IMG/VR virus record: IMGVR_UViG_3300025101_000028
Coordinates: 1-61,787 of that record
Reading direction: 5' to 3' (one strand)
Source: a virus
DNA: 61,787 nt
Under the pieces are notes generated by a model. That model did not search any database and had not been told where the DNA came from. It saw only the letters and a program-made list of their open reading frames with translations. Below are positions 2,343 to 38,175 of this stretch, piece by piece (the stretch's first letter is position 1; the number at the start of each line of letters is the position of its first letter). A program made the position numbers and the translations under genes.

Positions 2343-2385
2343 AATATAACCGATTGATGAAATATTGCAAGGACAAATTATGTCC
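2343..2385 (-). promoter_or_regulatory. promoter with GGWCA operator
   Basis: TTGCAA (2365-2370), 16 bp and TATATT (2343-2348) drive 2118..2315. The operator GGACA-N5-TGTCC (2371-2385) directly abuts the -35 box and contains the stop codon of the 2378..2590 gene. Confidence 0.8.
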
Positions 2386-2590
2386 GTTTTTGTTTTATGT
2401 CCTCTACAAGGATAAGATGATCAATGTTGCATAAAACTCTTTTCTTGTTGGCATGACGACCATTGAGAAACTTTACCCACAGTAAGTCATCTTGATTGCA
2501 TACCCTCCGAGCAATACCGACAACGACACCATAGTCTAACCTACCTCTATTCAAGTCCACTTCCCACGTTACTAAACTTCCTACTTGCAT
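2378..2590 (-). CDS. VGDL-family small protein
   Basis: 70 residues starting MQVGSLVTW, with the family layout: an N-terminal VGSLV strand, then a YGVVVGI strand and a LLWVKFL strand. This suggests a small SH3-like beta barrel by inference only. It overlaps the next upstream family member by 10 nt. Its stop lies within the GGWCA operator of the following promoter. Start chosen at ATG after GAGGAG. Confidence 0.75.
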   Translation of the reverse strand: MQVGSLVTWEVDLNRGRLDYGVVVGIARRVCNQDDLLWVKFLNGRHANKKRVLCNIDHLILVEDIKQKRT

Positions 2591-2757
2591 TTTATCTCCT
2601 CTAAATGATGAAATGGTAGTAAGTAATTCCTACCGTTGATAAGGACATAGTATTGACCACTTCTGTTCTTTGGTTTTATAATAAGCCCGATAGAGCCGTA
2701 ACCAATAAGATAGTTATCGTATCTGTCTATGTATCTGAACAAATCACCTACTTGCAT
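2581..2757 (-). CDS. VGDL-family small protein
   Basis: 58 residues, start at 2757 after GGAGG (the longer frame to 2817 lacks a ribosome site). It begins MQVGDLFRYI, with GLIIKPK and QYYVLING strands, and ends LEEIKCK. That ending is enforced by the ribosome site and start of the next gene, which it overlaps by 10 nt. Confidence 0.75.
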   Translation of the reverse strand: MQVGDLFRYIDRYDNYLIGYGSIGLIIKPKNRSGQYYVLINGRNYLLPFHHLEEIKCK

Positions 2758-2942
2758 ATTGCCTCCAAATGTCCTGACCATGCCGATCCTTTCTGTCCAT
2801 TCGGGAGAAGAACCCAATGACTATTCGCATAGCGACGATCTTCTTCTATATAGACCACCAAAGCACCTTTGTAAAAGTTTGTATTATTGATGTTCAAGTC
2901 CATTCCTAACTTGTAAAGTTTTCCCTGTATCAGTGTCCTCAT
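2748..2942 (-). CDS. divergent VGDL-family protein
   Basis: 64 residues from the ATG at 2942 (GGAGA 5 nt upstream). The N-terminus MRTLIQGKLYKLG is a relaxed version of the family motif; GALVVYIEE and HWVLLPNG follow, and the C-terminus is LEAICK, as in chain members. It overlaps the next gene by 10 nt through the ATGCAAGTAG junction. Confidence 0.7.
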   Translation of the reverse strand: MRTLIQGKLYKLGMDLNINNTNFYKGALVVYIEEDRRYANSHWVLLPNGQKGSAWSGHLEAICK

Positions 2943-2944
2943 AA

Positions 2945-5388: not shown

Positions 5389-5441
5389 GAAAGACCTCCG
5401 AATGATTGAATGAAAAGATTGTTTGAATGTTTAGTGTTTAT

Positions 5442-5485
5442 AATATAATTAGGTTGGAAGAAAAAGTCAAGGACAAAAAATGTCC
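5442..5485 (-). promoter_or_regulatory. promoter with GGWCA operator
   Basis: TTGACT (5465-5470), 17 bp and TATATT (5442-5447) drive the AAA+ ATPase. The perfect palindrome GGACA-N5-TGTCC at 5471-5485 touches the -35 box. Confidence 0.85.
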
Positions 5486-5494
5486 GATTTAGTT

Positions 5495-5698: not shown

Positions 5699-5725
5699 AG
5701 CAACCTCCGTTTGTTTGATATAAGT

Positions 5726-5778
5726 AATATAATTGATTTTGAATTGTTTGTCAAATTAGATTCGGACAATTTATGTCC
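5726..5778 (-). promoter_or_regulatory. promoter with GGWCA operator
   Basis: TTGACA (5749-5754), 17 bp and TATATT (5726-5731) drive 5495..5698. Operator GGACA-N5-TGTCC at 5764-5778 contains the stop codon of the 5771..6055 gene. Confidence 0.85.
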
Positions 5779-6055
5779 GTTTTCGTTTTAACTCTCTGAA
5801 GAAGAAAGCCGTTGGGGGTCTGATATTATCATTCTCTGCTTTGACATTGATCCAATCTACCTTTATGGGGTATTTGTTGCTACGAGAATAGTTTATCTCC
5901 ACGATAAGACCGACCATATCTTTATGGTTACATTCAAGTAACCTATCGTTCTGTTCGGTTGTGAGAGCGTAGGGAGAAATTGCTACCAAGTCACCTACTC
6001 GAAACTTGCCTTGCCTACCCTCATGTTCTCTATATTTCCATTTTTGTGTTGTCAT
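5771..6055 (-). CDS. VGDL-family protein, extended
   Basis: 94 residues from the ATG at 6055 (GGAGGTCAGT upstream). The family core KFRVGDLVAISPY begins at residue 17 after a basic N-terminal extension (QKWKYREHEGRQG). It is followed by MVGLIVEINY and YPIKVDWINV strands. It stands downstream of the VWA gene, with a short inverted repeat (GACTAC-TGT-GTAGTC, 6097-6111) in the gap. Confidence 0.7.
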   Translation of the reverse strand: MTTQKWKYREHEGRQGKFRVGDLVAISPYALTTEQNDRLLECNHKDMVGLIVEINYSRSNKYPIKVDWINVKAENDNIRPPTAFFFRELKRKRT

Positions 6056-6124
6056 ACTGACCTCCGTTAAAAAAAACTTATTGCCCACCCATACCCGACT
6101 ACTGTGTAGTCTCAACCTTTTTTA

Positions 6125-7360
6125 TTATCCCTCTATCGGGATACCGATAACTTTCTCATTGGTAGAGAAGTATGGATTTTTTGCGTGGTAGTCAGAAGTA
6201 AACCATATTCTCTGACATCTACTTGCTACAGGCTTTGGGGCTTCCATGTCGGTCAACACGATATGACCGTCAAAGCCACCGTTATTGTTGACCCATTCTG
6301 TCGGTGCATTAAAGCAAGTACCACCACACAGTACCCTCTCGGTAGCCTTTCTCTGACCTTTCTTCCACACATAGATTTTAGACTCGTCTACACTAGTGTC
6401 GAAAGGTACGACAGTAAACTCTGCAAGTTTGGAAAGCCCATTCAATTCGGAGAAGAAAGCCTGTAGCATAGCATCCGACACTGAGCCACTTTGGTCGATA
6501 GAGATAGCAATTTTTGCTGTTCTGTTGACCTTCTTACCAGCATGAATGTAGGGGAATCGTGGGTTGATTCGTCGCACTGTAGACCTTTTGTTGCTACGTT
6601 GGGAAGTCTTGATGAAGTAACGTAAAACCTTCTTCCAATCGACCTTTGGGGTTATCATGTCAATGATACGTTCTTGCATACTAGCACCTACCGTACCCCA
6701 ACCCTGTCCACGACTTTGGACTTCTTTAACAGCGTCCTCTACTGCTTGTCGCATACGTTCTTTTGCCATTTGTTTGGTGTCCTCGTCTGCCTCACCCCAC
6801 CCACTGTGGTCGTCCATGCTGTCGGGTTCGCCTCCTCCTTGACCTTGACCATCACCGTCGCCCTCACCTTGCTTACCATGTTTGGGGTCGTATGCACCCT
6901 CTTGATTTTGTTGGTCTTGTTGGAGTTTGGAGTAATACCATTCTGCACTTTGCTCTTTTGGATAGGACTCAAAGATACCTCTCGTAGGAATACAACCACC
7001 TTCGGGTAATTCATCCATAAGGAATGAGTTAATAGCCAAGTCTGTGGCGATATTCCACACCTTAGACATACCTTCGGGGGGTAGTCTACCTGTGACATGT
7101 TCAAAAATAATGTGATAGAATTCGTGTTTGAGAACACCTAGTTTTTGCTTATCAGATAGTCTCTCGAAGAATTCGGGATTATAGACCATTTCAAATGTAC
7201 CACTACCCTCATTGAGGCACACACCAGCCGTAGGTATGGCACTAGTCTGTGATTTATTGATACGTCTTGACAATGCTGCAAAGAACGGTTCTGCTTGTAA
7301 CAAGCGATAAGTGTGTAAGTCCAAATCAAACTTTGGTTTTTTGGTTGGTTTATCAGTCAT
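6125..7360 (-). CDS. VWA-domain putative metallopeptidase
   Basis: 411 residues. The N-terminal part carries HEFYHIIFEH, a zinc-peptidase HExxH motif at 79-83 with a further His at 88. The middle (about 165-190) is a Gly/Gln/Asp-rich linker. The C-terminal VWA-like domain has the metal site DQSGSVSD (near 293) and a second acidic motif, VLTDMEAP. This arrangement matches the VWA-like/putative metallopeptidase family commonly paired with MoxR AAA+ proteins, and the ATPase lies just downstream. Proteolysis is not proven. Own promoter-operator. Confidence 0.85.
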   Translation of the reverse strand: MTDKPTKKPKFDLDLHTYRLLQAEPFFAALSRRINKSQTSAIPTAGVCLNEGSGTFEMVYNPEFFERLSDKQKLGVLKHEFYHIIFEHVTGRLPPEGMSKVWNIATDLAINSFLMDELPEGGCIPTRGIFESYPKEQSAEWYYSKLQQDQQNQEGAYDPKHGKQGEGDGDGQGQGGGEPDSMDDHSGWGEADEDTKQMAKERMRQAVEDAVKEVQSRGQGWGTVGASMQERIIDMITPKVDWKKVLRYFIKTSQRSNKRSTVRRINPRFPYIHAGKKVNRTAKIAISIDQSGSVSDAMLQAFFSELNGLSKLAEFTVVPFDTSVDESKIYVWKKGQRKATERVLCGGTCFNAPTEWVNNNGGFDGHIVLTDMEAPKPVASRCQRIWFTSDYHAKNPYFSTNEKVIGIPIEG

Positions 7361-7391
7361 GGATAATCTCCTGTGTTGAAGTGATGTTTAT

Positions 7392-7444
7392 AATATAACT
7401 AGAAATGAAATGATTGTCAAATCGTAAACGGACAATTTTTGTCC
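7392..7444 (-). promoter_or_regulatory. promoter with GGWCA operator
   Basis: TTGACA (7415-7420), 17 bp and TATATT (7392-7397) drive the VWA protein gene. Palindrome GGACA-N5-TGTCC at 7430-7444 lies inside the 3' end of 7417..7794. Confidence 0.85.
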
Positions 7445-7794
7445 AAGTCAATAATTACTGCCTCTGGCTCGTCACGATACCTACTAATAATATCTGTACA
7501 GAATACACGTTGTTCCTGTGACATGTGACTTACAAGCTCTTTGGTTGGTAGCAACCACTGTGGTAAAGGGAACAATCTGCTCGCTATATACTTTGCACTG
7601 TGTAAATACCTAGTGCTACAGATCAATGCACCACATGACATGTGTGTTAGTTTGTAAGTTTTTGAGTGATTATCTTTATAGATTAAAAACGGATAGTGAA
7701 TGTAGTGTACACCGTTGTCGGTTGTCCATTCAAGATTAGTCTTTGTGTACTTATAGTCACCATTTTTACGTTTGAATTTAAGTATACTTCGCAT
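7417..7794 (-). CDS. hypothetical protein
   Basis: 125 residues. Basic N-terminus (MRSILKFKRKNGDYKY), then aromatic beta-like segments and a helical C-terminal part with acidic residues. No known motif. The ATG overlaps the end of the upstream gene by 17 nt. Its 3' end runs through the operator and -35 box of the VWA promoter, showing how compactly the units are packed. Confidence 0.65.
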   Translation of the reverse strand: MRSILKFKRKNGDYKYTKTNLEWTTDNGVHYIHYPFLIYKDNHSKTYKLTHMSCGALICSTRYLHSAKYIASRLFPLPQWLLPTKELVSHMSQEQRVFCTDIISRYRDEPEAVIIDLDKNCPFTI

Positions 7795-7999
7795 AGTTAC
7801 CTCGTAATAGATTGTATTGAAGATTGTTGATATCTCGGACTAACTCCTCAACGTCAATGTTATCTTTTATCTTGAAGATAACTTTGTTGTTGACCTCTCG
7901 TATCCATTCGATGTAATCGGGGGGAATGAGAGTTTGCACTGCGATAGAGTTTTTACTATCGGTGACAATTATTTGTCCTGTCTCTACTAACCTAGCCAT
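7778..7999 (-). CDS. hypothetical protein
   Basis: 73 residues, AAGGA ribosome site 9 nt upstream. Segments IIVTDSKNSIAVQTLIPPDYIEWI and VIFKIKDNIDVEELVRDI suggest a small alpha/beta domain. Not recognised. First gene of a two-gene unit. Confidence 0.65.
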   Translation of the reverse strand: MARLVETGQIIVTDSKNSIAVQTLIPPDYIEWIREVNNKVIFKIKDNIDVEELVRDINNLQYNLLRGNYAKYT

Positions 8000-8047
8000 T
8001 GTGTCAATCCTTACAAAGTAACACAGTAACTAGGTGTTTGATTATGT

Positions 8048-8329
8048 TTATAATATAACTGTTTCAGATTTTTGTGCAACCTCAAAACGGTCAATTTTTG
8101 ACCAAATTCTAAGGTTTGATAAAAAGGTTCGATTGTCACTAATAACTTCAGACAAAGTTTTTCCCTCAATTTTACAAATTTCAGGATACTCGCTTATTAC
8201 CCCCTCTCTATCGGAGGAGTAGATAAGAACATGATAGGAATCGTCTATCACGAGATAACTCCTATCATTACATTCAACAACCACAGCAAAACTACTGCGA
8301 TAATCGTCAATCCATTTTACTATTTGCAT
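8048..8329 (-). CDS. hypothetical protein
   Basis: 93 residues starting MQIVKWIDDYRS. Strands FAVVVECNDRSYLVIDD and YHVLIYSS form a beta-rich N-terminal half. It overlaps the VGDL gene upstream by 10 nt in the usual junction register and reads to the end through the next promoter. The C-terminal 20 residues may therefore be by-products of the operator sequence. Confidence 0.6.
   Translation of the reverse strand: MQIVKWIDDYRSSFAVVVECNDRSYLVIDDSYHVLIYSSDREGVISEYPEICKIEGKTLSEVISDNRTFLSNLRIWSKIDRFEVAQKSETVIL
8052..8103 (-). promoter_or_regulatory. promoter with GGWCA operator
   Basis: TTGCAC (8074-8079), 16 bp and TATATT (8052-8057) drive 7778..7999. Operator GGTCA-N5-TGACC at 8089-8103 lies within the coding end of 8048..8329. 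Confidence 0.75.
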
Positions 8330-8499
8330 ATTATCTCCACACTTAGATGTAAGTCACGATCTACATTAGCCCAACCGAAATTTCTGCCCTCTCTGAGCCA
8401 ATGGACTTTATATTCTTTTTCTCCTCTAAATTCCCTTATGTCGATAACAATGCCGACACCGAAATAGTTTTCGTGATTTACCAATGTTCCTACTCGCAT
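8320..8499 (-). CDS. VGDL-family small protein
   Basis: 59 residues, start at 8499 with TTGGAGGTATT before the ATG. It begins MRVGTLVNHE, has FGVGIVIDI and KVHWLREG strands and ends VEIICK. It overlaps both neighbours by 10 nt. Confidence 0.75.
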   Translation of the reverse strand: MRVGTLVNHENYFGVGIVIDIREFRGEKEYKVHWLREGRNFGWANVDRDLHLSVEIICK

Positions 8500-8648
8500 A
8501 ATACCTCCAAGTTGTGGGAATACCTAGACCATATAGTAAATCTTCTTTGTATAATCCAATGAATACGAACATCATCCCCCCTAGTATGGGTAACAATTCC
8601 CATGCTTTTTGGGAATGACACGTTCCTCACTAAACTACCCACTTTCAT
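8490..8648 (-). CDS. VGDL-family small protein
   Basis: 52 residues, begins MKVGSLVRNV, then MGIVTHTRGDDVRIHW, and ends LEVLCE. The end is dictated by the overlapping ribosome site and start of the downstream gene (10-nt overlap, GCGAGTAG junction variant). The start follows a weak GGAAGTCTG site. Confidence 0.7.
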   Translation of the reverse strand: MKVGSLVRNVSFPKSMGIVTHTRGDDVRIHWIIQRRFTIWSRYSHNLEVLCE

Positions 8649-8871
8649 CAGACTTCCTCACCAAGAATTGATTGCCCTGTATCATACTCGCCCTTGTTTT
8701 AGGAAGATTTAAATAAACTGCCACAGGTTCTATGCCATTGACATGGTGCATAGCACTAACCACCATAGAGCCTTGCTTTAGCACCGATATAACAACGTGG
8801 TAAGACCCGTCCTTGTGCATTATTATATCGTCAATTTGTGGCTCATATCTGAGTATTTCGTTTATGTTCAT
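8635..8871 (-). CDS. possible VGDL relative
   Basis: 78 residues. QIDDIIMHKDGSYHVVISVL near residue 12 resembles the family layout with a changed motif. The rest has beta strands (SMVVSAMHHV, PVAVYLNL) and a basic end. It overlaps the downstream family gene by 14 nt and starts 2 nt from the stop of the next gene. Confidence 0.65.
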   Translation of the reverse strand: MNINEILRYEPQIDDIIMHKDGSYHVVISVLKQGSMVVSAMHHVNGIEPVAVYLNLPKTRASMIQGNQFLVRKSDESG

Positions 8872-8873
8872 AG

Positions 8874-9143
8874 TTACTTCCTTATTTCAAATGCTTTTAT
8901 ATATCCTGTCGGGCATGACACCCACACTACTCGCCAACCCCTACACTGGGGTGGGAGTCGTGGTTGTATCTTTCCTTGTAGACCTTCTTCTATCCATACC
9001 TCTACCACTGTACCACCGTCATCAGACCATTTACGAAACGCAAAGGCATTGTCGGTCAATTCGATAACGATAGGTGTTAGTACCTCTACTAACTGGTCAT
9101 AGGTGAGTTTGTCCTTTGGGTTCCAATTATGTTCATAAGCCAT
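8874..9143 (-). CDS. hypothetical protein
   Basis: 89 residues, GGAGG upstream. Contains a helical segment (YDQLVEVLTPIVIELTDNAFAFRKW) followed by beta-like TVVEVWIEEGLQG and a Pro/Arg/Trp-rich patch (RLPPQCRGWRVVWV). No known family. The ATG overlaps the last base of the preceding gene. Confidence 0.7.
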   Translation of the reverse strand: MAYEHNWNPKDKLTYDQLVEVLTPIVIELTDNAFAFRKWSDDGGTVVEVWIEEGLQGKIQPRLPPQCRGWRVVWVSCPTGYIKAFEIRK

Positions 9144-9391
9144 TATCGACCTCCAATGATAACTTTAGAAATTTTACCCTTGTCAACGACACAAGTGACG
9201 TTGTTGGGAAGATAGACCTTGTTATCTATTGCGTGTTTAAGGTAGTCCATAAAGATTTGATTGGTAAAATTAGCCTTTACAAGCAAAGCATAGAAGTCAT
9301 GAACATCACCCTCCCATGTAGAGGAGGGGTATAATCGTGCAATAAAGTCCATAGCCTCGTCAAGAGCCTCTTTGAAATTATGATATTCCAT
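9143..9391 (-). CDS. hypothetical protein
   Basis: 82 residues from the ATG at 9391 (GGAGGT upstream). The first half is helical and acidic (NFKEALDEAMDFIARL), the second ends with beta-like CVVDKGKISKVIIGG. Not recognised. Same unit as the CCHC protein gene, which it overlaps by 14 nt. Confidence 0.7.
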   Translation of the reverse strand: MEYHNFKEALDEAMDFIARLYPSSTWEGDVHDFYALLVKANFTNQIFMDYLKHAIDNKVYLPNNVTCVVDKGKISKVIIGGR

Positions 9392-10208
9392 AGTCACCTC
9401 CGTAGTTTTCAACAAGTTTTTTGCAGAGTCCCAAGAAGTCAGACATTTGTTCCTTTGACCACTTCTTTAGAGCATAGTTAATGTCCTCTGTGGGTGCTTG
9501 TTCAAACCATTCATCTGGAAATGTGTAGGATGATTGGGCAATGACCTCGATAGCCTCGACATTACCCCAATAGTAGGAATAAGAGAACAAGGCACTAGCC
9601 AAAGCATCTGACTTTGTTTTAATCAGTATCCTAGCATTGATTTTGTTATCGCCATATTCGGGCTTGTAACCAAGCAAAGGAATGAACACTTCTTGTCTCT
9701 TACTATCTTCACCAAGAGCGAACACATTAAGATTTTCGGGCAATTCTGCACCAACAGTACAAAGATGCTCTTTGGTAACGTATGAGCCTGCTTTGTAGTT
9801 ATAACCTCTATCGGTAACTTTAATAAGTGAAGCAGGTGTCAGACCATATTTAATAGCTATTTCAGACCATAAGTGTCTCCACACACGATTGGCTTTGATG
9901 ATAAATTTTTTATCTTTTACCATTTGTGGACAATCCCTACGGTTATGCCCTGTTTCACGACAGTAGCCACACTTTTTGGGCTTTTTAGCAACCTTTGTGC
10001 CTGTCTTTGAAATGCCTTTGCGTTTTTCGATATACTGCACTGCGTAATTGCCCTTGAAGTCACGTTCGTGAATAGGTTTATCTTTGACCTGTTCGTAAAG
10101 AGCGATCATGTCGGGACACTTTACAAGTGTGTGTCCTTGTGTACCACAGAACTTACATGTTGGTGCTGACCGTCCATAGTTTGATTGTTTTCTTGCATTT
10201 ATAGTCAT
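9378..10208 (-). CDS. protein with two CCHC zinc knuckles
   Basis: 276 residues. Two exact Cys-x2-Cys-x4-His-x4-Cys motifs are visible: CKFCGTQGHTLVKC (18-31) and CGYCRETGHNRRDC (80-93). CCHC knuckles of this type bind single-stranded nucleic acid in retroviral and eukaryotic proteins, so RNA or ssDNA binding is the likely role here (inference). The remaining 180 residues are not recognised; they contain alternating beta strands and a helical C-terminus. Cytoplasmic, with its own promoter-operator. Lysine-rich linkers between and around the knuckles support nucleic-acid contact. Confidence 0.85.
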   Translation of the reverse strand: MTINARKQSNYGRSAPTCKFCGTQGHTLVKCPDMIALYEQVKDKPIHERDFKGNYAVQYIEKRKGISKTGTKVAKKPKKCGYCRETGHNRRDCPQMVKDKKFIIKANRVWRHLWSEIAIKYGLTPASLIKVTDRGYNYKAGSYVTKEHLCTVGAELPENLNVFALGEDSKRQEVFIPLLGYKPEYGDNKINARILIKTKSDALASALFSYSYYWGNVEAIEVIAQSSYTFPDEWFEQAPTEDINYALKKWSKEQMSDFLGLCKKLVENYGGDYGIS

Positions 10209-10240
10209 AAAGACCTCCGTTTATTGTTGAATGTAATAGT

Positions 10241-10293
10241 AATATAATTGTTTCTTGTTTGTTTGTCAAATGCGAAACGGTCATTTTTTGTCC
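10241..10293 (-). promoter_or_regulatory. promoter with GGWCA operator
   Basis: TTGACA (10264-10269), 17 bp and TATATT (10241-10246) drive the CCHC protein gene. Operator GGACA-N5-TGACC at 10279-10293 contains the TGA stop of 10281..10490. Confidence 0.85.
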
Positions 10294-10490
10294 GTTTCTA
10301 TTTTTATTAGCATATGAGGTTGGGTTTGTATCCTGTTACCGTTATGTACGTTCTGTATTCTGATATAGCCTTTGAATGAGCCTGTTCTTTCAACACCTTT
10401 GCCCAATACAAGCCAAATCTCATAGCTGTGTGGAGTGTTAAATGCCCTATGTTGCTTTCTATACACCAAGTCACCTGTTTTTATTTGCAT
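10281..10490 (-). CDS. VGDL-family small protein
   Basis: 69 residues, start at 10490 after GGAGG. It begins MQIKTGDLVYRKQH, continues EIWLVLGKG and GYIRIQNV, and ends in a Lys-rich tail. It overlaps its upstream family neighbour by 10 nt. Confidence 0.75.
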   Translation of the reverse strand: MQIKTGDLVYRKQHRAFNTPHSYEIWLVLGKGVERTGSFKGYIRIQNVHNGNRIQTQPHMLIKIETDKK

Positions 10491-10687
10491 AACTCCTCCA
10501 ATCCGATAACGACACCATGACAATAGTGTCCAAAGTCATTACTTTTACCTGTTAATCTTCCCTCTTTGAGCCACTGTACTTTATAGGGAAAAGGGTTCTT
10601 TTCCCTCACTTCGGTAATGATGCCGATCCTGTCTGTTTCGTAGGAAATTGTTACCAAGTCACCTACACTGTGTTTTAGTTTGGACAT
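10481..10687 (-). CDS. VGDL-family small protein
   Basis: 68 residues, start at 10687 after GGAGG. The core HSVGDLVTISYETDRIGIITEV starts at residue 6, with PYKVQWLKEG following. It ends LEELCK, set by the overlapping junction with 10281..10490. Confidence 0.75.
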   Translation of the reverse strand: MSKLKHSVGDLVTISYETDRIGIITEVREKNPFPYKVQWLKEGRLTGKSNDFGHYCHGVVIGLEELCK

Positions 10688-10714
10688 AACGTCCTCCGTT
10701 TGTTTGATAATTGT

Positions 10715-10757
10715 AATATAACTCATTCATCATATTTGTCGAGGACATTTTTTGTCC
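10715..10757 (-). promoter_or_regulatory. promoter with GGWCA operator
   Basis: TCGACA (10737-10742), 16 bp and TATATT (10715-10720) drive 10481..10687. The perfect palindrome GGACA-N5-TGTCC at 10743-10757 is inside the 3' end of 10723..10935. Confidence 0.8.
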
Positions 10758-10935
10758 GTTTTAGAAAGTCGGCTCTCATATTGGCAGCAACCATGTCGTT
10801 GGTTACAATGGTCACACAAGACTTCACACAAGTAAGGTCGTATTTATAATCCTCATTGAGAGGACACCACCAAATATCTGAAATTATCCACATAGTCTGT
10901 GTCACCAAATCCCAACACAAGTCACCTATATTCAT
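10723..10935 (-). CDS. divergent VGDL-family protein
   Basis: 70 residues from the ATG at 10935 (GGAGGACAATT). MNIGDLCWDLVTQTMWIISDIWW keeps the GDL start but the rest is Trp- and Cys-rich. It overlaps the upstream gene by 14 nt; its 3' end carries the operator of the next unit. Confidence 0.65.
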   Translation of the reverse strand: MNIGDLCWDLVTQTMWIISDIWWCPLNEDYKYDLTCVKSCVTIVTNDMVAANMRADFLKRTKNVLDKYDE

Positions 10936-11188
10936 AATTGTCCTCCAGTACACGTTTGAACATGTAGAAGTTTGTGTCTATTCGCCACCAACGATTATTC
11001 TCATAGAAATGATAAATAGCACTGTCGTAGTCACCCTCATCATCTCGAAATGTTTCGGTTGTCTCGTCACAATCGTTCCATGTGACCTCAATACTTATAA
11101 AACCATCCTCTTTACAATAGAAGTGTTCTTTGATTAGACCGATAAAAAGCCCATCAATTGTGTCTGTTTTTATTAGTGTGCCCACCAT
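10922..11188 (-). CDS. VGDL-like acidic protein
   Basis: 88 residues. It begins MVGTLIKTDTIDGLFIGLIKE, similar to the family start, followed by a strongly acidic Asp/Glu/Tyr-rich stretch (NDCDETTETFRDDEGDYD). Acidity of this kind can mimic DNA but no function can be assigned. The ribosome site is weak; a GGGGGACAC lies upstream. Confidence 0.6.
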   Translation of the reverse strand: MVGTLIKTDTIDGLFIGLIKEHFYCKEDGFISIEVTWNDCDETTETFRDDEGDYDSAIYHFYENNRWWRIDTNFYMFKRVLEDNYEYR

Positions 11189-11200
11189 AGTAGTGTCCCC

Positions 11201-11539
11201 CTATTGGTCTGTCTTGCGTTTACTATCACCAGCATTATTGACAGTGACGGTCTTGAATTTGATATCGTTAAGTCCACCCTTACGTTGGTTGTTCCAACCA
11301 CGATTTGCCTCCCACTTCTTCTGATAAGTGTCTGCGTCACTCTCTGAATCGAAGGCTAATATAGAAATACAGGCTTGCTTACTCTCACCTGAGACACAAC
11401 CCCTGTACCTAACGTGTGTCTCTGTGCCTAATTCCTCGACACAATCGGGACACTCATTGATGTACCCCCCCACTCGTTGCTTTTCTGCACTCTGACAATC
11501 GAATTCGTCCTCACAATGTTTGCATGTTCTAGTCATCAT
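11201..11539 (-). CDS. zinc-ribbon-like small protein
   Basis: 112 residues. CKHCEDEFDC near the N-terminus and CPDC at about 34-37 give two Cys pairs spaced like a zinc ribbon. A Gly/Asn/Lys-rich C-terminal half follows (WEANRGWNNQRKGG). Zinc binding is likely; the partner is unknown. GGAGG upstream and its own promoter-operator. Confidence 0.7.
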   Translation of the reverse strand: MMTRTCKHCEDEFDCQSAEKQRVGGYINECPDCVEELGTETHVRYRGCVSGESKQACISILAFDSESDADTYQKKWEANRGWNNQRKGGLNDIKFKTVTVNNAGDSKRKTDQ

Positions 11540-11566
11540 TACCTCCTGTGTTTGAATGATGTTGAT

Positions 11567-11619
11567 AATATAATCTGTTTAATTTTATTTGTCAAATCCA
11601 AAACGGTCAGAATTTGACC
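11567..11619 (-). promoter_or_regulatory. promoter with GGWCA operator
   Basis: TTGACA (11590-11595), 17 bp and TATATT (11567-11572) drive the zinc-ribbon gene. Operator GGTCA-N5-TGACC at 11605-11619 contains the TGA stop of 11607..11849. Confidence 0.85.
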
Positions 11620-11849
11620 ACTTTAATATGACTTCTCCATAGGTCGCCATAGTCGTATTCACATTGGTCATTATCAGACCAAAGAACAGCAAAGGAAGAA
11701 TAATTTTTTTCGTTAGTAGTGTCCTGTCGGAATTCGTGTGCAACAACCACACCCATACAGCCGTAGTCCTGTGATTCCTCTCTGTTCCACATGACCAAAG
11801 AGCCGACTCTGACTAACTGTTCTTCATCAATTAAATCACCTACTTGCAT
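11607..11849 (-). CDS. VGDL-family protein with doubled N-terminal motif
   Basis: 80 residues. It carries the family start twice, MQVGDLIDEEQ and then LVRVGSLVMWNRE, as if two starts had been joined. GCMGVVVAHEF and SFAVLWSDND strands follow, and it ends KVVKF at the operator. This could be a remnant of fusion between adjacent array members. It overlaps the upstream gene by 10 nt. Confidence 0.75.
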   Translation of the reverse strand: MQVGDLIDEEQLVRVGSLVMWNREESQDYGCMGVVVAHEFRQDTTNEKNYSSFAVLWSDNDQCEYDYGDLWRSHIKVVKF

Positions 11850-11998
11850 ACTGCCTCCAATTCATGATCATCATACCAATTGCTTATACAATTATCTATC
11901 CGTATCACATGAAAGTTTATACCGTAACCATCACCATGCTCGTCTATTACAATACCGAAGAAGCCTTTATAATGCTTTACCAAAGAACCTACTCGCAT
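11840..11998 (-). CDS. VGDL-family small protein
   Basis: 52 residues, start at 11998 (GGTGGTGAT ribosome site). MRVGSLVKHYKGFFGIVID is followed by NFHVIRIDN, and the protein ends LEAVCK at the junction with the next gene. 10-nt overlaps on both sides. Confidence 0.75.
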   Translation of the reverse strand: MRVGSLVKHYKGFFGIVIDEHGDGYGINFHVIRIDNCISNWYDDHELEAVCK

Positions 11999-12201
11999 AT
12001 CACCACCTGTTCTGTGATTTCCCAATAACCTCTGTCTATCTCGAACAGGTAGTCCTCTAATTCCTCTAAGGAGGGGTTGTCGGTGCAATACTCTGCGAAC
12101 CACTCTCTGATAATCCTCTCGGCTATTGCATGGGTTTTACATAGATAAACTATGTTATCGTCACCACTGTATCTGATTTGTAATGTTATTATTGTGTCCA
12201 T
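11989..12201 (-). CDS. hypothetical protein
   Basis: 70 residues, GGAGG upstream. Unlike its neighbours it is not a VGDL protein: TIITLQIRYSGDDNIVYLC, then a helix AIAERIIREWFAEY and an acidic C-terminal helix. It ends CE in the usual junction register, overlapping the next gene by 10 nt. This shows the interlocking junction is not limited to one protein family. Confidence 0.7.
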   Translation of the reverse strand: MDTIITLQIRYSGDDNIVYLCKTHAIAERIIREWFAEYCTDNPSLEELEDYLFEIDRGYWEITEQVVICE

Positions 12202-12228
12202 AAGAACCTCCGTTTGTTTGATGTTTAT

Positions 12229-12281
12229 AATATAACTGTTTAGTTTAATTCTGTCAAATGCAAAACGGTCATTTTTTGACC
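12229..12281 (-). promoter_or_regulatory. promoter with GGWCA operator
   Basis: TTGACA (12252-12257), 17 bp and TATATT (12229-12234) drive 11989..12201. Operator GGTCA-N5-TGACC at 12267-12281 contains the TGA stop of 12269..12439. Confidence 0.85.
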
Positions 12282-12439
12282 ACTTCTAAATTGATTTCGT
12301 TCTCTTGATATTCTAACCCACAAAGCCACTTGACAGACCATAGTTTTTTGAAAACAGGATTTTGTTTTACAATCAAGCCAATGCTGTCGTTATCAACGGC
12401 TGTTTCCTTATATTTTACTAAATCACCTACTTTGAACAT
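12269..12439 (-). CDS. VGDL-family small protein
   Basis: 56 residues, start at 12439 after GAGG. MFKVGDLVKYKE, SIGLIVKQ and WSVKWLCG follow the family plan. It ends LEVVKK in the operator and overlaps the next member by 13 nt. Confidence 0.75.
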   Translation of the reverse strand: MFKVGDLVKYKETAVDNDSIGLIVKQNPVFKKLWSVKWLCGLEYQENEINLEVVKK

Positions 12440-12582
12440 AATAACCTCAATTCTGTTATCCACATTTTACCCTCGCCAGTACCGTCTATGTAGTGTACTA
12501 TCCAACAATCGACATTTATCTGTCTTGTGATAACACCTACATCATCACAATAATCTATCACTAAATCACCTACTTTGAACAT
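12427..12582 (-). CDS. VGDL-family small protein
   Basis: 51 residues, start at 12582. MFKVGDLVIDYCDDVGVITRQ, then CWIVHYIDG, ending RLLCSK. The junction here is the TTCAAAGTAG variant, giving 13-nt overlaps on both sides. Confidence 0.75.
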   Translation of the reverse strand: MFKVGDLVIDYCDDVGVITRQINVDCWIVHYIDGTGEGKMWITELRLLCSK

Positions 12583-12749
12583 GTTACTTCCTTCAGAATG
12601 TTAACTGTCTCTGTTCTTGTACCTAGATCAGGCCAATGTACATCTACCCTAGTGTGTCCATTGTAGTCCAGCATTTCATGTACCTTAACGACTACCCCAA
12701 TCCCACAGTGTCGTGGTGATTGGTGTCTTACTAATGTTCCTACTTGCAT
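12570..12749 (-). CDS. VGDL-family small protein
   Basis: 59 residues, start at 12749 after GGAGA. MQVGTLVRHQSPRHCGIGVVVKV, then RVDVHWPDLG, ending VTCSK. It heads a three-gene unit. Confidence 0.75.
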   Translation of the reverse strand: MQVGTLVRHQSPRHCGIGVVVKVHEMLDYNGHTRVDVHWPDLGTRTETVNILKEVTCSK

Positions 12750-12775
12750 GTTGTCTCCATTTGTTTGATGTAGAT

Positions 12776-12828
12776 AATATAACTGTTCCGAGTAACCCTG
12801 TCAAGCCCAAAACGGTCAATTTTTGACC
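12776..12828 (-). promoter_or_regulatory. promoter with GGWCA operator
   Basis: TTGACA (12799-12804), 17 bp and TATATT (12776-12781) drive 12570..12749. Operator GGTCA-N5-TGACC at 12814-12828 contains the TGA stop of 12816..13028. Confidence 0.85.
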
Positions 12829-13028
12829 ACTTCCAATACTTCTTCGGCAAATACGGAATAGACTTGACCTTGCATGTCTCCGTGTATAATTCTAATCCTA
12901 CGAAAGCCCACAGGTCTTTCTCCCCCATAGCCACAATCAGCATACACCACTAGTCCTACAGTATCCTCGTATCCCTTATAAATGCTTTTCCAAACCTTTT
13001 TTATCCTTACTAAATCGCCTACTTGCAC
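12816..13028 (-). CDS. VGDL-family small protein, GTG start
   Basis: 70 residues, the last gene of the ten-gene chain. The start is GTG (13026-13028) in an otherwise standard TGGAGGTATT-GTGCAAGTAGG junction. MQVGDLVRIKKVW is followed by TVGLVVYAD and FRRIRIIHG. It ends in the next operator. Confidence 0.75.
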   Translation of the reverse strand: MQVGDLVRIKKVWKSIYKGYEDTVGLVVYADCGYGGERPVGFRRIRIIHGDMQGQVYSVFAEEVLEVVKN

Positions 13029-13189
13029 AATACCTCCAGTTTTCTAATATCAAATTCAATTCGTTCCCCAGTGTCTGCTATGCTGATTACCACGTTGTAA
13101 GGGTTCCATTTGTCCACAATGATAGCCAGTTTTCCAACTTTACTTTGACTAAATGACTGTCGTATCCTTACCAAATCGCCTACTTGCAT
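13019..13189 (-). CDS. VGDL-family small protein
   Basis: 56 residues, begins MQVGDLVRIRQSF, then KLAIIVDKW and NVVISIADTG, and ends KLEVLCK. 10-nt overlap with both neighbours. Confidence 0.75.
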   Translation of the reverse strand: MQVGDLVRIRQSFSQSKVGKLAIIVDKWNPYNVVISIADTGERIEFDIRKLEVLCK

Positions 13190-13314
13190 AATACCTCCAA
13201 ATGACCTCTGTATACCCACCCAAAGCAACACTTTACCAAGTTTGGTTCTATCTCTATGATAATACCGACTTTGGTATTGGGATATGTTGTCTTTACTAAC
13301 GAACCTACTCGCAT
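13180..13314 (-). CDS. VGDL-family small protein (shortest)
   Basis: 44 residues, the shortest member. MRVGSLVKTT, then KVGIIIEIEP, and a Cys/Trp segment (KCCFGWVYR), ending HLEVLCK. It keeps only the two N-terminal strands and a reduced C-terminal part. 10-nt overlaps on both sides. Confidence 0.7.
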   Translation of the reverse strand: MRVGSLVKTTYPNTKVGIIIEIEPNLVKCCFGWVYRGHLEVLCK

Positions 13315-13478
13315 ACTTCCTCCAAATAATAATCGCTATACCACCCTGTTGATTGGTCTTTGAGCCACAGGATATGCACCCTACCACCTGCTCTGTGTGT
13401 TATTATGCCTAATTTGTACTCGCCACCATTTAGACGTTCTCTTATAGATTGCCACCTTACTAACGAACCTATTCGCAT
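13305..13478 (-). CDS. VGDL-family small protein
   Basis: 57 residues, begins MRIGSLVRWQS, then KLGIITHRAGGRVHILWLKD, ending LEEVCE. The sequence SGDxR/GGRVHILW resembles the 8490..8648 member, suggesting recent duplication. Confidence 0.75.
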   Translation of the reverse strand: MRIGSLVRWQSIRERLNGGEYKLGIITHRAGGRVHILWLKDQSTGWYSDYYLEEVCE

Positions 13479-13663
13479 GTTACCTCCACTAATTGTTTTG
13501 TATGAAAATGCCTTGTTATAGACATGTTTGTTATGGGAGAGATTTGCCACACACCCCCACTCATGTAGTAGGTGATGATGTAGATTTCGGGCATGACCTC
13601 GCTGTTGTATCTGTTAATTGCTCTCACCAGTTTACCTACTTTTAAATTCTTTTTGTTTCTCAT
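13469..13663 (-). CDS. VGDL-family small protein
   Basis: 64 residues, with a basic extension MRNKKN before LKVGKLVRAINRY. It ends VEVTCE at the junction. No strong ribosome site; its ATG overlaps the stop of the upstream gene (ATGA), so it probably depends on coupled translation. Confidence 0.7.
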   Translation of the reverse strand: MRNKKNLKVGKLVRAINRYNSEVMPEIYIITYYMSGGVWQISPITNMSITRHFHTKQLVEVTCE

Positions 13664-13821
13664 AATTTCACAACGTCATAAGTACACTTTGCACATATCT
13701 CACCTGTTTTAATCCAGTAGATAGTGTATGAGTTATAACGCAGATTGTAACGCATTACCATACCTATGTCCTTTCTTTCTAAGTATCCATGTAAATGGAC
13801 TAAATCTCCTGTTCTGAGCAT
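13660..13821 (-). CDS. VGDL-family small protein
   Basis: 53 residues, start at 13821 after AGGAGG. MLRTGDLVHLHGYLE, DIGMVMRYN and SYTIYWIKTG, with CAKC near the end. The stop forms a 4-nt ATGA overlap with the next gene rather than the 10-nt form. Confidence 0.75.
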   Translation of the reverse strand: MLRTGDLVHLHGYLERKDIGMVMRYNLRYNSYTIYWIKTGEICAKCTYDVVKL

Positions 13822-14000
13822 TTTTCCTCCTTTGTGAGTAAATCATCTTCAAATTCAACTGTTTCGTGTGTTCCACCATTATCGAAAAACCACCGAATAC
13901 GGTAGTAGGGATAGCCTACATTGTCCTCAAAGTCAACCTTGACTATTATTCCCATAGTCGCTATCTCCCACTTTGCCCATACTAAATCTCCTACTTGCAT
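13800..14000 (-). CDS. VGDL-family small protein
   Basis: 66 residues, TGGAGGAAGT before the ATG. MQVGDLVWAKWEIATMGIIVKV and YYRIRWFFDNG, then an acidic C-terminal end. It overlaps the next gene by 22 nt and the upstream one by 10 nt. Confidence 0.75.
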   Translation of the reverse strand: MQVGDLVWAKWEIATMGIIVKVDFEDNVGYPYYRIRWFFDNGGTHETVEFEDDLLTKEEKCSEQEI

Positions 14001-14164
14001 ACTTCCTCCACATGTTCGTTATGATAATGGTGTGTTCTCATAGTCTTTACGTTGTAACCTGTAAAGATCCACGATCCATTTGTTTTTAGACAGATCACGA
14101 TATTGCCCATTTGCCAATCGGTGTGCCTATTGTGTGTTATTATATATAAGTGTCCTACTTGCAT
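13991..14164 (-). CDS. VGDL-family small protein
   Basis: 57 residues, TGGAGGTGTT before the ATG. MQVGHLYIITHNRHTD, then GNIVICLKTNGSWIFTGYNV, ending VEEVCK. 10-nt overlaps on both sides. Confidence 0.75.
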   Translation of the reverse strand: MQVGHLYIITHNRHTDWQMGNIVICLKTNGSWIFTGYNVKTMRTHHYHNEHVEEVCK

Positions 14165-14349
14165 AACACCTCCAAATATTCTTCTGTCCACCATGTCGGT
14201 TTATCATCATTAATAAACTGCACTAAAAATGTTAGTTTGCCATAGCCATGACCTTTTTGATCCCAAATCTTTGATCCGACAATAAGACCTAAAGGACGTC
14301 GCTTTGGTAGATAAAAATCTTTTGTTCTTACTAGATCACCTACTTGCAT
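14155..14349 (-). CDS. VGDL-family small protein
   Basis: 64 residues, TGGAGGTACT before the ATG. MQVGDLVRTKDF, PLGLIVGSK and LTFLVQFIND, with WWTEEYLEVLCK at the end. The WWT..LEVLCK end is shared with the neighbouring 14340..14519 member, evidence of close duplication. Confidence 0.75.
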   Translation of the reverse strand: MQVGDLVRTKDFYLPKRRPLGLIVGSKIWDQKGHGYGKLTFLVQFINDDKPTWWTEEYLEVLCK

Positions 14350-14519
14350 AGTACCTCCAAACGACTTCGTGTCCACCAGCTTTTGTGTCCACTAGGGAAT
14401 AGAACCTCATACTTCCAATCGCCATTGTGGTGGACACCTGTGTCTATTATAAGACCAATAGCACCACTTTGACTAGGATGAAATGGGTTGTTTATTTGTA
14501 CTAAATAACCAATTTTCAT
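14340..14519 (-). CDS. VGDL-family small protein, first of chain
   Basis: 59 residues, TGGAGGTGCT before the ATG at 14519. MKIGYLVQINN, AIGLIIDTG and WKYEVLFPSG, ending SWWTRSRLEVLCK. It is the promoter-proximal gene of the ten-gene chain 14519 to 12816. Confidence 0.75.
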   Translation of the reverse strand: MKIGYLVQINNPFHPSQSGAIGLIIDTGVHHNGDWKYEVLFPSGHKSWWTRSRLEVLCK

Positions 14520-14554
14520 AGCACCTCCAAAAATAAATGATAATTATACTTGAC

Positions 14555-14598
14555 AATATAATATAAATGCGTTATAATGTCAAGGACAGAAATTGTCC
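14555..14598 (-). promoter_or_regulatory. promoter with GGWCA operator (drives ten-gene chain)
   Basis: TTGACA (14578-14583), 17 bp and TATATT (14555-14560). The operator GGACA-N5-TGTCC at 14584-14598 touches the -35 box. The TGA of the upstream gene is part of the TTGACA. Confidence 0.85.
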
Positions 14599-14792
14599 GT
14601 TTTCTTAAACCAACGAGTTTCACAATGAACTTTCCTATTACTTCCCACTTGTCTCAAGTAGACACCGTATTTACCGTAGCCACCAATGTCTACGACCAAA
14701 TAAAGTGTGCCGAGTATCGGATGAATTCTCAAACTATTTTTGAGATTACCGACCAACAAGTCTCCGACTTTAACATCTTTTCGTTCAAGCAT
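14580..14792 (-). CDS. VGDL-family small protein
   Basis: 70 residues with a short charged extension MLERKD before VKVGDLLVGN. TLYLVVDIGG and YGVYLRQVGS strands, and WFKKT near the end. GGAGAG upstream of the ATG. It has its own promoter-operator; its 3' end forms the operator of the chain promoter. Confidence 0.75.
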   Translation of the reverse strand: MLERKDVKVGDLLVGNLKNSLRIHPILGTLYLVVDIGGYGKYGVYLRQVGSNRKVHCETRWFKKTDNFCP

Positions 14793-14810
14793 ATCGCTCT
14801 CCTTTTATAT

Positions 14811-14853
14811 AATATAACACATGGGAAAAATAAATCAAGGACAAAAAATGTCC
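14811..14853 (-). promoter_or_regulatory. promoter with GGWCA operator
   Basis: TTGATT (14833-14838), 16 bp and TATATT (14811-14816) drive 14580..14792; perfect palindrome GGACA-N5-TGTCC at 14839-14853. Confidence 0.8.
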
Positions 14854-14857
14854 GTTT

Positions 14858-15028
14858 TTATATTTTTACAAACCAACGTGGTGGCATACGGGAAACCCTT
14901 CCTGTTACTATGTTCTTTACTCTTATAGTCACACCTGATAACTCGCCTATAACAATATAAACGTGCTTGTCTCTCTTATGATTTGTAAAAGTTAATAAGT
15001 CACCGACTTGATAGTTACACATTTTCAT
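14858..15028 (-). CDS. VGDL-family small protein
   Basis: 56 residues, start at 15028 with GAGGTGA upstream. MKMCNYQVGDLLTFTNHK, HVYIVIGEL and VTIRVKNIVTG, ending PPRWFVKI. Stands alone between two promoter-operators. Confidence 0.75.
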   Translation of the reverse strand: MKMCNYQVGDLLTFTNHKRDKHVYIVIGELSGVTIRVKNIVTGRVSRMPPRWFVKI

Positions 15029-15055
15029 TATTCACCTCGTTTGTTGTTCCTTTAT

Positions 15056-15098
15056 ATTATAACATGTTCGAGTAATCAGACAAGGACAAAAAATGACC
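15056..15098 (-). promoter_or_regulatory. promoter with GGWCA operator
   Basis: TTGTCT (15078-15083), 16 bp and TATAAT (15056-15061) drive 14858..15028; operator GGTCA-N5-TGTCC at 15084-15098. Confidence 0.8.
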
Positions 15099-15102
15099 GT
15101 TT

Positions 15103-15480
15103 TCAAACAATTACCAAATATTCCCTGTCGATTCCTAATTGACCAACGTCATGGTATCGTGTGTCACACCATTGGACAATCCAAAAGCCCTTGTGATTTT
15201 TGCTCTCAGCGACAACAAGTCCAAGACCAAGTTGTGGAACTGTTCTGTGTTGGACTAATTGGCCAATGGACATTTTTTGTCCGTTTTCGTACCCTATAGA
15301 AATGTCAAGTATTTTTTTCTCGAACCCTATAGAATTGTCAAGTTTTTGACATGTCAAGGGATTTTTGCTAATTTTATTTGTTTTCCACTTTGTAAACTTC
15401 CAAGCTGGGGACTTTGGTTGTACTGTGTTTAGTCCAGCTCTTTTTAAATACTCTAGTATGCTATCTATTTCTTCTGTCAT
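15103..15480 (-). CDS. possible fused VGDL-type protein
   Basis: 125 residues from the ATG at 15480 (GGAGG 9 nt upstream). The N-terminal part (MTEEIDSILEYLKRAG) is helical. The middle, about residues 42-68, is translated across the second pair of CTATAGGG elements and a GGWCA operator. The C-terminal part beginning MSIGQLVQH is a VGDL-family domain (GLGLVVAESK, WIVQWCD). Either this is a real fusion made by recombination across a promoter, or the C-terminal domain is expressed alone from an ATG inside the operator, which lacks a ribosome site. Confidence 0.55.
   Translation of the reverse strand: MTEEIDSILEYLKRAGLNTVQPKSPAWKFTKWKTNKISKNPLTCQKLDNSIGFEKKILDISIGYENGQKMSIGQLVQHRTVPQLGLGLVVAESKNHKGFWIVQWCDTRYHDVGQLGIDREYLVIV
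15268..15345 (-). repeat. GGWCA operator plus tandem CTATAGGG element (copy pair B)
   Basis: A perfect GGACA-N5-TGTCC palindrome at 15268-15282 is followed by two AATACTTGACATTTCTATAGGGT-type motifs with CCC at 15292 and 15325. It is the same block as at 803-893, but here it lies within an open frame and no -35/-10 pair follows the operator. Confidence 0.7.
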
Positions 15481-26287: not shown

Positions 26288-26713
26288 TTAATTAGTACCT
26301 GTTGAACCATATCCACCTTTTCCTCTTTCAGTTTTTGAAAGTTCAAAGGCTTCTTCAAATTCAACTTCGGGATAGGGCATTATAATAATTTGCCCTATTC
26401 TCTCGCCCACTTCGTACACAGGTGAATTGTGTGTATTTATTGCAAACTTAAACATTATTTCTCCACGATAACCAGAGTCAATAACTCCAACAGCGTTTCT
26501 AAGATAATGTGCAGTTCTAGAGATAGAAGAACGTGGGAAAATTAATCCCACATGTCCTTTTGGTATCTCCATGGCCAACCCTGTTCCGTATACATAATTT
26601 CCGTGCTTGTCAAATGTTTGAGACACAGCGTACAAATCCATACCAGCATCACCAGGTTTAGCATACTTTGGAATTGTTGCACCAGCATCAAGTTTCATTA
26701 CTTTTACTTTCAT
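26288..26713 (-). CDS. dut: dUTPase
   Basis: 141 residues, the normal trimeric dUTPase length. All five motifs are visible: PGDAGMDLYA (1), PRSSISR (2), GVIDSGYRGEI (3), GERIGQIIIMP (4) and RGKGGYGSTG (5). It hydrolyses dUTP to dUMP and pyrophosphate, keeping uracil out of phage DNA and supplying dUMP to the phage ThyX. Confidence 0.95.
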   Translation of the reverse strand: MKVKVMKLDAGATIPKYAKPGDAGMDLYAVSQTFDKHGNYVYGTGLAMEIPKGHVGLIFPRSSISRTAHYLRNAVGVIDSGYRGEIMFKFAINTHNSPVYEVGERIGQIIIMPYPEVEFEEAFELSKTERGKGGYGSTGTN

Positions 26714-26879
26714 CTTTCCTCCTTATACCTTCGCGGTGTATATCTATTTTGTTTCCGTTATCAAAAAACTCAACTATGAACGATTTCGGAAACGAACCTT
26801 GAGAAAGTACAAGGCCCAATCTTTTCGAACTATGAGGGTAATATACTAAATCACCTATCTTTATTACATTTACTTTCAT
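26688..26879 (-). CDS. VGDL-like small protein
   Basis: 63 residues beginning MKVNVIKIGDLVYYPHSSKRLGLVLSQG, then FIVEFFDNG. A family member outside the operator block. It ends in a basic tail and overlaps the dUTPase gene by 26 nt. GGAGG upstream. Confidence 0.7.
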   Translation of the reverse strand: MKVNVIKIGDLVYYPHSSKRLGLVLSQGSFPKSFIVEFFDNGNKIDIHREGIRRKDESKSNET

Positions 26880-37556: not shown

Positions 37557-37853
37557 TTAAAACTCTAATTTCATTTTACTTAGCTTAGAAATTAAAATTT
37601 CTTTTTCTGCTTTGTACATGTCTATACTTTGCTTGTGTCTTAATATATTTTTTTCAATGTTCTTGCAAACAAAATTTTTAGACCCTAATCGTATTCCTTG
37701 TTCTAACATGTTGTTTTCTAATTCATGAATGTATTCTTTGGAATTACTTATTCTTCTATCTAATTCTTGAATTTCATTTAAGCAATTGTTATACTCCCAT
37801 TGTGGCGTAACACCACTGTTATCACAAACCTTTTTCCATAAACTGTTAATCAT
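37557..37853 (-). CDS. hypothetical coiled-coil protein
   Basis: 98 residues, AAGGAGAG upstream. Helical throughout with Asn, Lys and Glu (CLNEIQELDRRISNSKEYIHELENNML, KQSIDMYKAEKEILISKLSK). Not recognised. It overlaps the upstream VGDL-like gene by 8 nt. Confidence 0.65.
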   Translation of the reverse strand: MINSLWKKVCDNSGVTPQWEYNNCLNEIQELDRRISNSKEYIHELENNMLEQGIRLGSKNFVCKNIEKNILRHKQSIDMYKAEKEILISKLSKMKLEF

Positions 37854-38175
37854 TACTAACTCTCCTTAAATTCTGTTCGGTAATATACCTATATTTGTTA
37901 TTTTTTTTTGAAATCAATAGCTTGTATTCAATTATGTAATATTGTTCTCTTTCATCAACAGGGTAGTCAACACCATAGTCTTTACATTGATAAAACATAA
38001 CTTCACAAACCAAACCATAGTCCCCTTTCATCTTATACGAAGCAGGGCCATCTTCTGATTTAAAACAAATTTCGACCAAATCTCCAACTTGGAACTTAGG
38101 TCTTCTGTTTTTCGGAAGCTTGTCAACTTTTATTTGGTGAAAGTATTGTTCGACGTCTCCATCCCCCTCTACCAT
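37846..38175 (-). CDS. VGDL-like protein, extended
   Basis: 109 residues. The family core PKFQVGDLVEICFKSED begins near residue 26 and is followed by GDYGLVCEVMFY and YYIIEYKLLIS. The first 25 residues overlap the upstream gene in another frame and have no clear ribosome site, so the true start is uncertain. Confidence 0.6.
   Translation of the reverse strand: MVEGDGDVEQYFHQIKVDKLPKNRRPKFQVGDLVEICFKSEDGPASYKMKGDYGLVCEVMFYQCKDYGVDYPVDEREQYYIIEYKLLISKKNNKYRYITEQNLRRVSND

Follow-up and report, generated by a model that had tools for sequence, protein, structure and literature searches.

A tandem array of small phage genes with one predicted SH3-like fold and overlapping translation joints in marine T4-like contigs

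The growth and turnover of hypervariable zones of small phage genes are mostly unexplained, and the locus described here raises the question of how one such zone is assembled and what its genes may do. It lies within 61,787 nucleotides (nt) of viral DNA, positions 1 to 61,787 of the IMG/VR record IMGVR_UViG_3300025101_000028, hereafter the window. An earlier note made from this sequence alone had described twelve tandem genes within 2.1 kb, ten of them in one unbroken unit. We identified these 12 genes, each of 44-70 codons and all on the - strand, within 12,427-14,519, and ten of them overlap in a single run (12,816-14,519). Their products begin with M(Q/K/R/F..)(V/I)G(D/S/T..)LV or a close variant, and the third strand ends, as had been proposed, in an aromatic residue (W, F or Y).

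A family of small proteins with a predicted barrel fold

The nucleotide motif GTNGGNGAYYTNGT, allowing at most one mismatch, occurs at 19 sites in the window where 2.16 were expected, a count reached in none of 100 shuffles of the window (shuffle maximum 7). An iterated profile retrieved 393 family members over 18 contigs and matched nothing among reversed decoys. In the window it identified 26 clear members at E<1e-3, or about 30-35 when weak ones are counted. The earlier estimate of some 30 genes between 2.4 and 44 kb was thus fair in number; clear members span 2.4-38.2 kb and the candidate near 43.9 kb is weak (E 0.08). Because members had initially been chosen by the motif, we retested homology without it. 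In leave-one-out profiles each of the 26 hand-picked members outscored all 200 of its own shuffles, and 24 still ranked within the top 5 % relative to their shuffles when the N-terminal motif was removed. With both edges removed, training restricted to other contigs and the closest relative excluded, 21 of the 26 were in the top 5 % and 14 scored above every shuffle. The family is therefore homologous along its length and not just at its conserved ends, although pairwise protein identity among window members is low (median 23 %, maximum 40 %).

Five strands were predicted by AlphaFold2 both for the product of 14,340-14,519, modelled with an alignment of 115 family sequences (mean predicted local distance difference test score, pLDDT, 93.7), and for a deliberately chosen divergent member, 13,469-13,663 (pLDDT 91.4). 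As the alignment of the divergent member was itself built from family members, its model is support rather than independent proof. Foldseek placed both models closest to SH3-like structures (PetP, YorP, the KOW domain of eS4, PWWP and Tudor), while the best matches in a viral structure library were small uncharacterised phage proteins. The closest single-domain folds are the small SH3-like barrels YorP of the Bacillus subtilis phage SPbeta (PDB 2heq) and cyanobacterial PetP (2n5u, 7r0w), with TMq 0.75-0.81, 17-26 % identity and E 1e-3 to 6e-3, although neither has a significant sequence match to the family. PetP is a subunit of cytochrome b6f, and to our knowledge neither protein occurs in arrays. 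The KOW, Tudor and PWWP domains (eS4, uL24, NusG, TDRD, NSD3) share the barrel type of the predicted models and give sub-threshold profile matches, but the family falls below curated cut-offs and lacks their basic charge trend. KOW profiles gave isolated sub-threshold matches and none at the curated cut-off, these matches agreeing in direction with an SH3-like fold. Known family labels were rejected for lack of a significant match: any one Pfam family matched at most 1 of the 115 members, and among PHROGs phrog_1690 matched 2, so that no family in either collection covers the members. Conservation concentrates in beta-1, beta-2 and beta-5 and at the aromatic residue that follows beta-3, and length changes fall mostly in loops around a constant core, in agreement with the variable middle proposed earlier. 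Together the models support the prediction of one SH3-like (KOW/Tudor-type) five-stranded small beta-barrel.

The joint between genes and the promoters of the array zone

Adjacent family genes most commonly overlap by exactly 10 nt (104 of 247 pairs), followed by overlaps of 4 and 14 nt, whereas among 1,505 other gene pairs the 10-nt overlap is close to absent (reported as 0.00 and entered as 0; Fisher test, 6e-99). At this joint ATGCAAGTAGG, which contains a TAG stop, encodes M-Q-V-G in the frame of the downstream gene and ..C-K-stop in that of the upstream gene, while the preceding GGAGGT is both a ribosome-binding site and part of the L-E-V codons. The LEVLCK tail of the upstream protein is thus encoded by the Shine-Dalgarno sequence and start of the downstream gene. 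C-terminal LE is present in 91 % of genes overlapped by 10 nt versus 27 % of those with a free end, and C-terminal CK in 97 % versus 4 %. The Val3 codon is GTA in all 82 starts at 10-nt overlaps and in 82 % of free starts, compared to 25 % genome-wide. Since the C-terminal motif tracks the overlap, the constant edge reported earlier is, at the C-terminus, mostly a consequence of the genes overlapping and represents a nucleotide signal that forms a translation joint. VGDLV is both structural and a signal, and is kept in isolated members. A few non-family genes share the 10-nt joint, such as 8,048-8,329.

The array zone has a promoter type of its own, in which the dyad GGWCA-N5-TGWCC precedes TTGACA-N17-TATATT. 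None of the window's 20 dyads lies beyond 15.3 kb (373-15,100, - strand). They sit ahead of sigma70-type promoters at a distance of 0 or 9 nt, whereas promoters elsewhere in the window (20.9-58.9 kb) are without a dyad; in contigs of ~190 kb dyads likewise mark the array zone. Approximately 233 dyads over the contigs (466 sightings on both strands) gave 223 downstream promoter matches, 128 at a spacing of 0 nt, 63 at 8-10 nt and a few near 20 nt, compared to 12 % for random positions. Spacing in steps of about one helical turn suggests a putative protein-binding site rather than an RNA hairpin alone. The single-strand stability of the dyad stem varies, the sub-clades G019, G007, L001 and L003 are without the dyad, and an Rfam scan of window positions 1-20 kb gave no match. 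A candidate late-promoter motif, TATAAATA, was dropped as it did not separate the zones.

These elements resemble the promoter-early-stem-loops (PeSLs), known from T4-type phages as mobile regulatory cassettes (Arbiol et al. 2010; Comeau et al. 2014; both as cited in PMC4503421), in that a dyad lies directly upstream of a promoter and is repeated. As far as PeSLs are outlined in that article, both systems are short repeats in T4-like phages where small genes shuffle, but within the operons of the array the exchange joint is itself coding, made up of the Shine-Dalgarno sequence, the overlapping stop and start and the first and last codons, and each exchanged unit is a single gene belonging to one paralogous family. 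The 'ORFanage' of cyanophage S-PM2 is a comparable hot spot in a marine T4-like phage, where small unknown genes come and go (PMC4503421), although the parts of that article available to us describe neither a single paralogous family nor a common joint. Integron cassettes, like the array units, are single genes that are gained, lost and reordered; the array joint is a translation signal, however, and eight array contigs gave no tyrosine integrase match.

Distribution, turnover and exchange among phages

A search with the joint pattern returned 26 stretches, drawn from slightly more than 20 viral contigs, and with the window alignment as query 21 contigs proved to have 2-28 members apiece. The iterated profile gave 17-37 members for each contig of 186-192 kb and 42 for one of 112 kb, mostly within one zone of ~20-30 kb per contig; two further contigs of ~192 kb have 7 and 25. 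Nearly all carriers have core genes in common with the window. T4-type gp23 was sought in seven virus contigs and contig G023, the window lying outside this test, and where the region is present was found in five of the seven and in G023 (E ~1e-61). The array is characteristic of a clade of marine T4-like contigs of ~190 kb and is present in at least one other lineage, so the expansion, of a size new to the earlier note, is real but extends well beyond this phage. Dense family arrays also occur in two contigs that were binned in marine metagenome-assembled genomes (MAGs). One, L108, is binned in the MAG Rhodospirillaceae SAT126; the other, L109, is a 305 kb contig with T4-type gp23 in Methylococcaceae TMED69 and is probably a misbinned large phage. 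Some L109 joints differ, with overlap ATGAAAGTCGGTGA and the previous gene ending in ..ESR-stop. Searches of phage isolates with a member or the consensus gave nothing at strict cut-offs and only weak matches at E<=10, and the isolates nearest by ribonucleotide reductase (RNR) or gp23 (among them Mel-JY01, Flavobacterium phage immuto, P-HM2 and S-RIM2) gave no profile match, even though the RNR of Microcystis phage Mel-JY01 is 64 % identical. A plasmid search gave no family match. Inside the zone, two proteins of ~230 residues (G005:185234-185932 and G002:88261-88956) carry the family domain at the C-terminus, fusions that could point to a function.

When syntenic arrays are compared between related contigs, units are seen to come and go between neighbours that are conserved, and in many cases every joint stays at -10. 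Contig G001 lacks the units at 13,305-13,478 and 13,180-13,314 at the syntenic place, and its own unit at 10,425-10,586 is missing from the window. We assembled unit pairs of at least 85 % DNA identity, leaving out one same-species contig pair (n = 27); both 75-nt flanks were at random-sequence level in 14 and one flank in a further 8. Exchanged units are 85-97 % identical between phages, the clearest case being contigs G002 and G019, with 96 % identity over a single unit and none beyond. Mean identity is ~0.3-0.4 upstream, 0.9 from the start codon, and falls to background within ~15 nt past the stop. Alignment ends cluster at the joint (P 0.03 and 0.02) and breakpoints lie mostly at gene joints, with two cases in which upstream identity runs 50-60 nt further. 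In matched contigs two unrelated flanks were found for 9 of 19 family pairs versus 1 of 12 other small-gene pairs (P 0.03), or per gene for 9 of 386 versus 1 of 655 (P 0.001). Synonymous divergence (pS) of some units is 0.14-0.17, against a genome mean of ~0.56, which would not fit well with vertical descent. Among 6,391 within-genome unit pairs none reached the >=75 % DNA identity threshold, with two moderately similar pairs at 75 % and 71 %, and recent tandem duplication was rejected as the main source for lack of close copies within genomes. Diversity thus arises at least partly from whole-gene swaps between phages and not from recent local duplication.

Pooled dN/dS of family orthologs is 0.13-0.35, with neighbours usually lower (0.07-0.18). 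As these values are well below 1, individual genes appear functional and constrained, and turnover seems to proceed mainly through gene replacement. The diversification suggested earlier holds as fast turnover and variable loops; positive selection as its driver was rejected at gene level. In eight contigs we found no match to reverse transcriptase (RVT_1), tyrosine integrase (Phage_integrase) or serine resolvase, and a diversity-generating retroelement, an integron and a resolvase system were rejected on these grounds.

Features of the window are collected in Table 1. Among neighbouring genes, a GroEL-like phage gene (19,461-21,032; named from sequence) has 97 % identity to its counterpart in the closest contig and 60-84 % to those of other contigs. 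An AAA ATPase adjoins a DUF2201 metallopeptidase/VWA protein at 4,330-7,360, a pair strongly conserved across the clade that borders the array zone. Several proteins at 35,929-37,060, 45,870-46,580 and 47,231-48,567, two of them in tandem, have in common an N-terminus of the type MKLTKQKLEQLIMEEYKSM; it resembles a prohead-targeting signal on otherwise different proteins.

Table 1 Family genes, promoters and joints in the window
Feature	Position	Strand	Evidence
Array gene 1, first of ten-gene run, predicted SH3-like barrel	14340..14519	-	E 4e-16; AlphaFold pLDDT 93.7
Array gene 2, exchanged or conserved unit, flanks 0.57 vs G001	14155..14349	-	E 1e-14
Array gene 3	13991..14164	-	E 6e-9; core alone not significant
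Array gene 4	13800..14000	-	E 1e-10
Array gene 5	13660..13821	-	E 2e-8
Array gene 6, divergent	13469..13663	-	leave-one-out test; pLDDT 91.4 with family alignment; core alone not significant
Array gene 7, not in syntenic G001 array	13305..13478	-	E 2e-13
Array gene 8, not at syntenic G001 place	13180..13314	-	E 1e-9
Array gene 9	13019..13189	-	E 3e-14
Array gene 10, GTG start, end of ten-gene run	12816..13028	-	E 2e-8
Array gene 11, with own promoter	12570..12749	-	E 6e-12
Array gene 12	12427..12582	-	E 1e-7
Family gene just after the 12,427-14,519 region	12269..12439	-	E 2e-13
Family gene	11840..11998	-	profile match
Family gene	11607..11849	-	E 1e-9
Family gene	10481..10687	-	E 5e-11
Family gene	10281..10490	-	E 8e-8
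Family gene	8490..8648	-	E 1e-12
Family gene; DNA 95 % identical to G001 unit, upstream flank unrelated	8320..8499	-	E 1e-12
Non-family gene with same 10-nt joint, MQIVKW start	8048..8329	-	
Family gene	5771..6055	-	E 4e-6
Family gene	2748..2942	-	E 4e-6
Family gene	2581..2757	-	E 9e-10
Family gene	2378..2590	-	E 1e-6
Family gene upstream of array	14858..15028	-	E 1e-5
Probable family gene upstream of array	14580..14792	-	E 0.06; leave-one-out test
Family domain, longer N-terminus	15103..15480	-	E 6e-8
Isolated family gene	26688..26879	-	E 4e-7
Isolated family gene	37846..38175	-	E 4e-5
Putative dyad operator GGACAATTTCTGTCC ahead of ten-gene-run promoter	14584..14598	-	
Sigma70-like promoter of ten-gene run, TTGACA(T/..)-N17-TATATT	14555..14583	-	
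Putative dyad operator GGTCAAAAATTGACC	12814..12828	-	
Sigma70-like promoter ahead of gene 11	12776..12804	-	
Example joint TTTGGAGGTACTATGCAAGTAGGTG: Shine-Dalgarno, gene 2 start, gene 1 stop	14335..14359	-	

A cassette model and its alternatives

We propose that the array is made of single-gene cassettes, each encoding a predicted SH3-like barrel of 44-70 residues with its own set of loops. Each joint would place the Shine-Dalgarno sequence and start of the next gene, together with the stop of the previous one, inside the conserved ends of both proteins, other versions of the joint giving overlaps of 4 or 14 nt. Because nearly the same ~25 nt open and close every cassette, recombination at a pair of joints could add, remove or replace one gene and would leave ribosome binding, start and stop intact. 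Given that no reverse transcriptase, integrase or resolvase was found in the contigs searched, we infer that exchange at the joints runs through ordinary homologous or annealing recombination, without a dedicated recombinase, and that selection keeps translatable products; the window has a RecA-like gene (53,269-54,387) that may take part. Transcription would start from the array's own class of sigma70-like promoters, with the putative operator ahead in helical phase, and the cassettes may be expressed early. The products could be small binding modules with one partner each, likeliest host or defence proteins encountered at infection, and shuffling would let phages sample cassette combinations. 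We are highly confident of the cassette architecture, regard the binding role as about evenly balanced, and consider the full account of array, exchange and binding to be somewhat favoured. The larger idea of a dedicated shuffling platform, in which a dual-coding joint and a zone-specific operator serve a repertoire of SH3-like binders exchanged to match changing hosts and defences, is tentative and leans towards doubtful.

Several points weigh against the account that we favour. Gene order and operons come from a simple purpose-made gene caller, the exchange P values rest on 19 and 12 pairs, and gene-level positive selection is unsupported. Other small phage genes move too, if less often here (1 of 12), and precise breaks could reflect selection for intact genes instead of a recombination hot spot. 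The contigs are metagenome assemblies in which chimeras are possible, but the exchanged units are not 100 % identical, as their range given above indicates. Some of this would suit ordinary tandem duplication and divergence, with ends kept by translation and folding (selection alone could maintain exact ends) and mosaicism of the kind general in phages; the moderately similar within-genome pairs noted above point the same way. We nevertheless think this improbable, because close within-genome copies are missing, isolated units are in excess over other small genes, breakpoints fall at the joint and GTA is retained even at free starts.

As to function, regulators that bind nucleic acid, ribosome or RNA polymerase and act on transcription or translation, like the KOW domains of NusG, uL24 or eS4, would be in keeping with eS4 KOW, NusG and PWWP as fold neighbours and with the sub-threshold KOW matches. 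Members carry a near-zero to slightly negative net charge (mean -1.2, median -1), which argues against general nucleic-acid binding; with no curated KOW match in the profile scan, and 20-40 strongly divergent copies per genome hard to square with one common target, we judge such regulators unlikely. A narrower form of the binding role, that the array stores inhibitors of defence systems (restriction, CBASS, Thoeris, CRISPR), is possible but rather unlikely: anti-defence islands are known for small proteins, fast turnover and exchange between phages, as seen here, but we identified no known anti-defence gene nearby and a PADLOC scan, whose models cover defence and not anti-defence proteins, was empty. 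Small decoration or internal proteins of the virion, or assembly accessories, seem very improbable. The zone does lie near an amidase and GroEL, but it has its own sigma70-like promoters with operator and stands apart from the gp23 region in long contigs.

Modular shuffling of T4-like genomes through repeated regulatory elements is already known, as are small SH3-like phage proteins, and in the open-access literature searched we found no description of this family or array. New here is an array of one predicted fold whose coding joint serves as Shine-Dalgarno sequence, start, stop and apparent site of exchange. A single small fold can thus make up a large share of a hypervariable zone, and the visible joint offers an explanation of how one gene could replace another with translation left intact. 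The array is also a warning that the best-conserved end 'protein' motif of such genes is largely a nucleotide signal. The signature GGAGGTNNTATGCAAGTAGG offers a cheap means of finding more arrays and, if the binding role is true, these would constitute a natural library of binders of ~60 residues and a route to host targets.

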